From Micavibrio sp. (GTDB lineage: Bacteria > Pseudomonadota > Alphaproteobacteria > Micavibrionales > Micavibrionaceae): DNA of 56,235 nt. The position numbers were made by a program, and so were the translations under genes. The DNA is taken from positions 1 through 56,235 of the forward strand of contig JAQGJB010000062.1 in assembly GCA_028290825.1 (NCBI GenBank), in the 5' to 3' direction. A model generated the notes under the pieces. It had not been told where the DNA came from and made no database searches. It saw only the letters and a program-made list of their open reading frames with translations. Positions 27,612 to 29,224 of the stretch are shown piece after piece (within the stretch, counting starts at the first letter, position 1; each line of letters opens with the position of its first letter).

Positions 27612-28202
27612 CTAATGCGGCTGAAGCTCATAATTTTTGACGCTGCCTGCATAGACCTCATGCACGAATCCAAGCGCCTGCGCACGAATGCCGAAAACGG
27701 ATGAAGATAAATGGATCAGCTTCTCAGCTTCCGCCTGGTTATACGTCTTAAGGCAGCGCTCCGCATAAAAGCCATGGAGCATCTCTCTCTGCTCGGCCAT
27801 TTCCTCAAGCCAGCTTTCCCATCTGGCCGCCGAACCCCAGAAACCCGGATACGGCGCATCCAGACCGATCGTCGCACTCCGGGAGATTAACCGGTAATCC
27901 CCGGCCATCGCGATCGCGGCCGCAACCCCCTTCGCCGTTCCCACAACATGCGTCGTAATGGGTGAACGTATTTCTTCCATCATTGTCTGGATTAACAAAA
28001 ACCCATCGATAATCGACCCCCCACTTGAATTGATTTTCAGGGTTATCGGTTCGCCGGGATGCGCATCGTCCAAATGTTTCAGAGTGGCAATGACTGACGT
28101 AACGCGTTCGGGTGTGACATCTCCGTAAAAATCGACAGCATTCTCCGTGGCTCTCGCTTTAAAATGTTCGCCACAGGATAGGTTCGAATTATTTGCAGTC
28201 AT
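27612..28202 (-). CDS. ClpP-family protein lacking the catalytic Ser and His (ClpR-like)
   Basis: A 196-residue member of the ClpP/crotonase fold. The fold is well kept: VDFYGDVTPERV, PITLKINSSGGSIIDGF and VVGTAKGVAAAIAMAG. However, where ClpP has the nucleophile in GQAASMGA this protein has GTAKGVAA (Gly92 for Ser), and the MIHQP His is replaced by Asp115 in IGLDAP. The Asp-bearing segment is also changed. It is therefore unlikely to be a peptidase by itself. It lies 31 bases after a Ser/His-containing paralogue on the same strand, recalling ClpP/ClpR pairs. GGAG precedes the ATG. A structural subunit or regulator is the likeliest role. Confidence 0.8.
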   Translation of the reverse strand: MTANNSNLSCGEHFKARATENAVDFYGDVTPERVTSVIATLKHLDDAHPGEPITLKINSSGGSIIDGFLLIQTMMEEIRSPITTHVVGTAKGVAAAIAMAGDYRLISRSATIGLDAPYPGFWGSAARWESWLEEMAEQREMLHGFYAERCLKTYNQAEAEKLIHLSSSVFGIRAQALGFVHEVYAGSVKNYELQPH

Positions 28203-28233
28203 GCCCGATACTCTCCGTTAAATACTGATAACC

Positions 28234-28965
28234 CTAGCCTAGTGCCGGACCGCGTCTTTTATGAACGGCCAGATGTGCCTCATTGGATTTCTGCGCGGCT
28301 TCATTGAAGGCGGATTTACATTCGGCATAACCGGCAATCTTGTCAATGACCCCCAGTTCCAGCGCTTCCGCAGGATACATGAAATAATCGCGGACCATTT
28401 TCTTGGACAGGGTTTTAGACGACGTTCCTGTCGTCATCGCATAAAACGCCAGCATGCGCGCCCTTGTATGTTTCATTTCCTCTGCGGAAATCGCCACATC
28501 GCCTGCCTGTCCCTCGACATTGGAAATCGAAGCCTCATGCATCATGATGGATGCATTGGGCGTTGCCGAACGATGCCCCTTGGCACCGGCAAGAAGAATT
28601 GTCGTCCCCATCGATGCCACCCGGCCGATAGCACAGGTATGAACAGGCGATGAAATCATGTTCATCATATCGATAATAGCCCAGCCCTGTGTAACCGCTC
28701 CGCCCCCGGAATTGACCAGCATGGTGATCGGCGTGCCGGGGCTGGCGGCCTCATGAAAAAGCAATTCGGCGATGACCCGGTCGGCCATATCCTGATTCAC
28801 AGGACCGTCAACTTTGACGATGCGGGACTTGGCGAGGATGCTGCGCGGCCCGTCATTGTCACCGACAGGCTTAAGATTAAAAATAGGGGTGAAAACTGGT
28901 GCAGATTCGACTGGCGTTTTAAAGGCTTCCGAATTTCCGCGCGCTCTGGCAGCTGTATTGCTCAT
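28234..28965 (-). CDS. ClpP-family protease subunit, Ser/His retained
   Basis: A 243-residue ClpP-family protein with an N-terminal extension of about 45 polar residues. Nucleophile Ser118 lies in GRVASMGTT and His143 in IMMHEAS, both aligned with ClpP. The Asp of the triad is not at its usual place: that position reads Lys in SKKMVRDYFM, although an Asp follows four residues later and could substitute. PVNQDMADRVIAELLFHEA and LVNSGGGAVTQGWAI are standard. AGGGAGA precedes the ATG. It is the upstream gene of a pair with the Ser/His-less paralogue. No Clp ATPase gene is in the window, so this is probably not the main housekeeping ClpP. Confidence 0.85.
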   Translation of the reverse strand: MSNTAARARGNSEAFKTPVESAPVFTPIFNLKPVGDNDGPRSILAKSRIVKVDGPVNQDMADRVIAELLFHEAASPGTPITMLVNSGGGAVTQGWAIIDMMNMISSPVHTCAIGRVASMGTTILLAGAKGHRSATPNASIMMHEASISNVEGQAGDVAISAEEMKHTRARMLAFYAMTTGTSSKTLSKKMVRDYFMYPAEALELGVIDKIAGYAECKSAFNEAAQKSNEAHLAVHKRRGPALG

Positions 28966-29150
28966 TATGGTAGTCTCCCTGTATAAGTTTTTTAATTGCG
29001 CCTAAATTATCATAAAAAGAGCCGTCTGAAACGATAAATTTGATAACACATTCAAACTACTAGTAAAATTGGTTTACAGAACAATACCCTAACGTCTATC
29101 CCAATCTCTGGTATCCGCATTTCGGTACCTCTGCCAAACACCGAAGCACC

Positions 29151-29179
29151 TTGATTTTGCTGCATTTCTTGGCGATAGT
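29151..29179 (+). promoter_or_regulatory. Promoter of the ileS-lspA transcription unit
   Basis: TTGATT (29151-29156), a 17-base spacer and GATAGT (29174-29179) predict a start near 29186 and a leader of about 39 bases. I see no T-box or other riboswitch in the 258-base gap. Confidence 0.5.
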
Positions 29180-29224
29180 GCCTGTCTCATTTCTTATGAA
29201 TTATCAAAGACGATAGGCCGGACT

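Follow-up and report, generated by a model that had tools for sequence, protein, structure and literature searches.

An accessory ClpP gene and a neighbouring gene for a ClpP-fold protein without catalytic residues in a Micavibrio relative

Does a pair of adjacent genes in a relative of Micavibrio encode a Clp peptidase built from one active and one inactive subunit? The question arises from a stretch of 56,235 nucleotides, here called the window, which is contig C51 of a 2.46-Mb assembly that is 86% complete. Micavibrio is placed in the Alphaproteobacteria; NCBI taxonomy lists it under Bdellovibrionota. The original prediction, made from the letters of the window, described a ClpP/ClpR-like gene pair whose upstream protein keeps the catalytic Ser and His and whose downstream protein has lost both, with no Clp ATPase encoded nearby. 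We have followed up these claims by alignment, profile searches, structure prediction and comparison with related genomes.

Results

The two genes lie on the minus strand and both match Pfam CLP_protease; to judge by sequence they are a ClpP/ClpR-like pair. The upstream gene, A (28234..28965), encodes an accessory ClpP of 243 amino acids with an N-terminal extension of about 40 residues and a C-terminal helix. With its triad present and a PF00574 score of 174.9 bits (E 2e-51) against a cut-off of 20.2, protein A is a predicted member of ClpP peptidase family S14. The downstream gene, B (27612..28202), encodes a ClpP-fold subunit of 196 amino acids that lacks the catalytic residues and scores 68 bits (E 1.3e-18) with the same profile. 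The 31 bp that separate the genes (28203..28233, minus strand) carry a ribosome-site-like motif, GGAGAG, ahead of the B start, and GGGAGA stands ahead of the A start in the AT-rich stretch (28966..29224, GC 0.386) between A and the divergent ileS gene. Both frames are intact, and codon use scores highest in the annotated frames and is coding-like there only. Third-position GC is 0.57 in A and in B, compared with 0.62-0.72 in seven neighbours, a shared lowering that fits either a common origin or low expression. We expect the promoter of the pair to lie within 28966..29224; a promoter scan of that stretch gave no match on the minus strand, and the promoter, terminator and repeat scans returned nothing diagnostic. 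A and B are presumably co-expressed.

The E. coli ClpP sequence served as numbering reference. Its S111, H136 and D185 agree with the published numbering (PMC2605481). Aligned with it, protein A retains both Ser118 and His143, as had been claimed. The same claim held that A was without the usual Asp, and this part has to be withdrawn: VRDYFM of A aligns with ERDRFL of E. coli, Asp193 is present, and the triad of A is therefore complete. In protein B the predicted losses are borne out, with Ser replaced by Gly92 and His by Asp115, and they go further than was noticed before, since the third catalytic residue is also gone (Asp to Ser166). B reads GTAKGVAA where GQAASMGA is expected and GLDAP where MIHQP is expected, and it lacks the Arg-Asp pair at the place of the catalytic Asp. 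Twenty of 33 nearly invariant ClpP positions are retained in B; the catalytic ones are all lost, and the other losses include Met98, Gly99 and Ser100 beside the catalytic Ser. The loss of Ser and His is more than chance, because each of the 94 other ClpP-like proteins that we aligned from the class and order has both, as do all 136 viral and other relatives of a second set.

AlphaFold2 gave the ClpP fold, handle helix included, for both A (mean pLDDT 83.5) and B (mean pLDDT 85.1). Since its input was an alignment of other ClpPs, these predictions are less than independent evidence. The closest solved structures for both proteins are ClpPs (VIA Z to ClpP 28.7 for A and 25.8 for B). By alignment and AlphaFold2, B has the ClpP fold and lost triad of a ClpR. 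Against PRK12552, which we take to be the ClpR model, it scores 34.5 bits where the cut-off is 263, and it exceeds the cut-off of no ClpP-family NCBIfam model; to judge by these profiles, B would not be a member of cyanobacterial ClpR.

We scored the ATPase-docking pocket at eleven positions, a set based on the ClpX/ADEP literature that we take to line it. In 52 housekeeping-like ClpPs, nine to eleven of these positions are apolar. The pocket of A has eight apolar residues of eleven and none that is charged or strongly polar, whereas that of B has three apolar residues and six that are charged or strongly polar, which makes it the most polar among the 97 compared. B is also without the axial N-terminal segment. 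Pocket composition, together with the missing segment in B, suggests that A could dock an ATPase and that B probably could not.

Genus mates lack the pair, which here forms an insertion between ribF and ileS. In three of these mates (G046, G048 and G049) the two genes lie about 90-130 bp apart; in the window genome the interval is 1.64 kb and holds B and A on the opposite strand. A different gene, acetyltransferase-like by eye, occupies the gap in another genome (G054), and we saw no diagnostic repeat or mobile element at the insertion site. No orthologue of A or B stood out among 142 genomes of the order. For B, none was found among 385 genomes of the class, in a 398-genome draw from the phylum, in viral contigs or plasmids, or in a species-wide contig collection searched with short peptide patterns, which reach close relatives only; phages gave none except one partial match of 33%. 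A shares 40-44% identity with most active ClpPs and 28% with B. Since B is no closer to A than to other ClpPs, nothing shows duplication or co-evolution. In one tree A groups with ClpP2 of G046 and G047 (support 93/84, modest, with A on a long branch), and in a second with these and the ClpP of G093 (support 80/72, also modest).

The original prediction raised the question of a housekeeping clpP and clpX elsewhere in the genome. A clpX gene is present (contig C72); clpP was not found in the assembly, nor was lon. Three genus mates have their clpP between tig and lon, one of them with an extra gene beside tig (names by eye), and the tig contig of the window assembly stops after tig and one more gene. 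Because lon is missing too, the tig contig ends so soon and genus mates have the order tig-clpP-lon, the missing clpP is most likely an assembly gap. We also considered a true loss, which explains the absence less well.

As had been noted, no Clp ATPase is encoded near the pair; nor is there one elsewhere on its contig. Other contigs of the same genome encode ClpX (C72), ClpA and a second ClpA (C112), ClpB (C94) and, between ssb and uvrA on C21, a Clp-type AAA+ protein of 830 residues. The [IV]GF docking loop is kept in all of these but ClpB, so that four docking-loop ATPases on other contigs partly explain the absence of one nearby. In G093 the ssb-uvrA slot has the order ssb, AAA+, accessory clpP, uvrA; the slot of G046 and G047 is occupied by two AAA+ genes and lacks a clpP. 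G046 has its ClpP2 near the clpA pair, and in the window genome no clpP was found near that pair. A profile of the ssb-uvrA AAA+ protein matched above 600 bits in 6 of the 142 order genomes, the next match being at 398 bits, and all six also hold an accessory ClpP. This co-occurrence is weak, because the six span only three genera and the ClpP of G035 is of another type. The similar identity of A to most active ClpPs also makes its link to any one ATPase weak. A partnership of A with the ssb-uvrA AAA+ protein is a lead, not a result.

Clp-type AAA+ genes with the docking loop adjoin ssb at L310:3497-5989 (C21 of the window genome) and at L114, L319, L333 and L339, and adjoin uvrA as well in all but G035 (6/142 order genomes). 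Two Micavibrio genomes have a second copy of the gene, and one of the copies has a degenerate first Walker A. Several genera of the family have clpA doubled in tandem, and an accessory clpP is often found nearby (L116:11486-16354, on C112 of the window genome; L108, L110, L111, L112, L113, L338), and the copies in the window genome are about 50% identical. At L113:2213-5071 (G025), two additional tandem ClpX-like genes stand directly ahead of an accessory clpP and a clpA pair.

Discussion

We suggest, giving the idea about an even chance of being right, that A and B belong as subunits to a single accessory Clp peptidase, in which A is responsible for catalysis and docking and B is a non-catalytic partner. 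One transcript would yield both proteins. A would cleave and would be the subunit on which a Clp-type AAA+ unfoldase docks, likely the ssb-uvrA protein or the second ClpA. B would take its place within the ring of A or as the opposite ring of the barrel, which would leave the barrel with fewer active sites and fewer docking sites. The folds, the handle helix, the ribosome sites and the 31-bp spacing fit a two-subunit complex; co-expression, co-assembly, the ATPase partner and the substrate are what we infer. Also in favour are the third-position GC common to both genes, the ClpP positions kept in B, the contrast between the two docking pockets, the docking loops of the ATPases in the genome, and the order of AAA+ gene and accessory clpP in G093. 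What speaks against the idea is that B has lost the Arg-Asp pair and the axial N-terminal segment and is no closer to A than to other ClpPs. A bolder version, possible but doubtful, is that B is an independently evolved ClpR-like subunit in a predatory lineage and that A, B and the ssb-uvrA AAA+ protein form a Clp machine of their own, in which at most half of the active sites are left and only one face can dock; such a machine might process its substrates and not degrade them.

B may instead have a role independent of A: it could be a scaffold of identical ClpP-fold subunits, a binding protein or a crotonase-like enzyme, and its neighbourhood would then be incidental. We consider this unlikely, although the docking pocket and N-terminus of B do not resemble what is seen in ATPase-driven peptidases and its active-site segment weakly matches enoyl-CoA hydratase (E 0.049) and PRK08260 (18.5 bits), neither seen in the other ClpPs scanned. 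The crotonase matches cover only about 50 residues and fall far under their cut-offs (13.4 against 27 bits, 18.5 against 320 bits), ClpP and crotonase belong to one superfamily, and the best match of the whole of B, by sequence and by structure, is ClpP; at 13.4 bits we put low the case for an enoyl-CoA hydratase or crotonase. The intact 196-codon frame of B, its ribosome-site motif, codon use that looks coding in no frame but the annotated one, and its confidently predicted fold, with 20 of 33 invariant positions kept and the losses clustered at the active site, speak against a decaying paralogue or a recent acquisition on its way out, which would leave A alone functional as a homomeric accessory ClpP. 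We think such decay improbable, even with the very long branch of B (3.9 changes per column), the want of an orthologue in any set searched and the disappearance of its pocket and sensor residues.

That the pair is a remnant of a phage-derived head maturation protease we regard as very improbable. PHROG families of that protease match A (E 2.9e-34) and B (E 1.6e-15), viral contigs encode numerous ClpPs related to A at roughly 40%, and the insertion is not in genus mates; however, this support amounts to family-level similarity. Both proteins score far below the cut-off of 120 bits for the NCBIfam head protease NF045542 (A 67.5, B 65.1), Ser and His are kept in every viral relative, and the pair is flanked by ribF and ileS with no phage structural genes beside it. 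A phage origin was put low on the NF045542 scores and these flanks.

How the preferred two-subunit peptidase would compare with known systems depends on which feature is considered. The cyanobacterial ClpP3/ClpR, plastid ClpPR and apicoplast ClpP/ClpR cores share with it an active ClpP and a ClpP-fold subunit without triad (PMC7966870); here, in contrast, the organism is a Micavibrio relative, the genes are adjacent and the assembly is a prediction. A functional resemblance to ClpP/ClpR is plausible, and the arrangement probably arose independently. Mycobacterial ClpP1 and ClpP2 both carry the triad, whereas B has none. The likeness to mycobacterial ClpP1P2 lies in having two ClpP types with ATPases docking on one type and one face only (PMC4416901), as the pockets of A and B suggest. 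Closer to hand, the Micavibrio ClpP2 near clpA2-clpA (G046, G047) and the AAA+-linked ClpP of G093 are accessory ClpPs of the same family, with which A groups; each is a single, triad-complete gene, however, and nothing like B lies beside it. A survey counted 21 inactive homologues in a set of 121 prokaryotic Clp-like proteins (PMC2605481), so that there is precedent for a dead subunit as such. The new part is its pairing with an active gene in a Micavibrio-related lineage, and our literature search found no paper on such a pair there. If A and B do assemble, mixed active and inactive ClpP cores would have arisen at least one more time outside the cyanobacterial line, and the purpose of the inactive subunits could be studied in a two-gene bacterial system as against the nine-subunit plastid core.

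Other ClpP genes were met in the course of the comparison. In two families of the order (f2 and f6), a longer ClpP of 290-390 amino acids stands in tandem with the housekeeping clpP (L013-L019, L031, L038, L039, L080, L090); the Asp reads Asn in two of these proteins, and since Ser and His are retained we rejected them as ClpP/ClpR pairs. Seven viral contigs (L233, L234, L235, L236, L239, L253, L264) hold two nearby ClpP-like genes, one canonical and one shorter and diverged. A third ClpP with complete triad and, by eye, a signal-peptide-like N-terminus is encoded in the window genome (L004:10226-11041, contig C102) and in G054 (L117:6723-7406), in both about 5 kb from a gene that looks homogentisate dioxygenase-like; it is possibly an exported ClpP that works without an ATPase.
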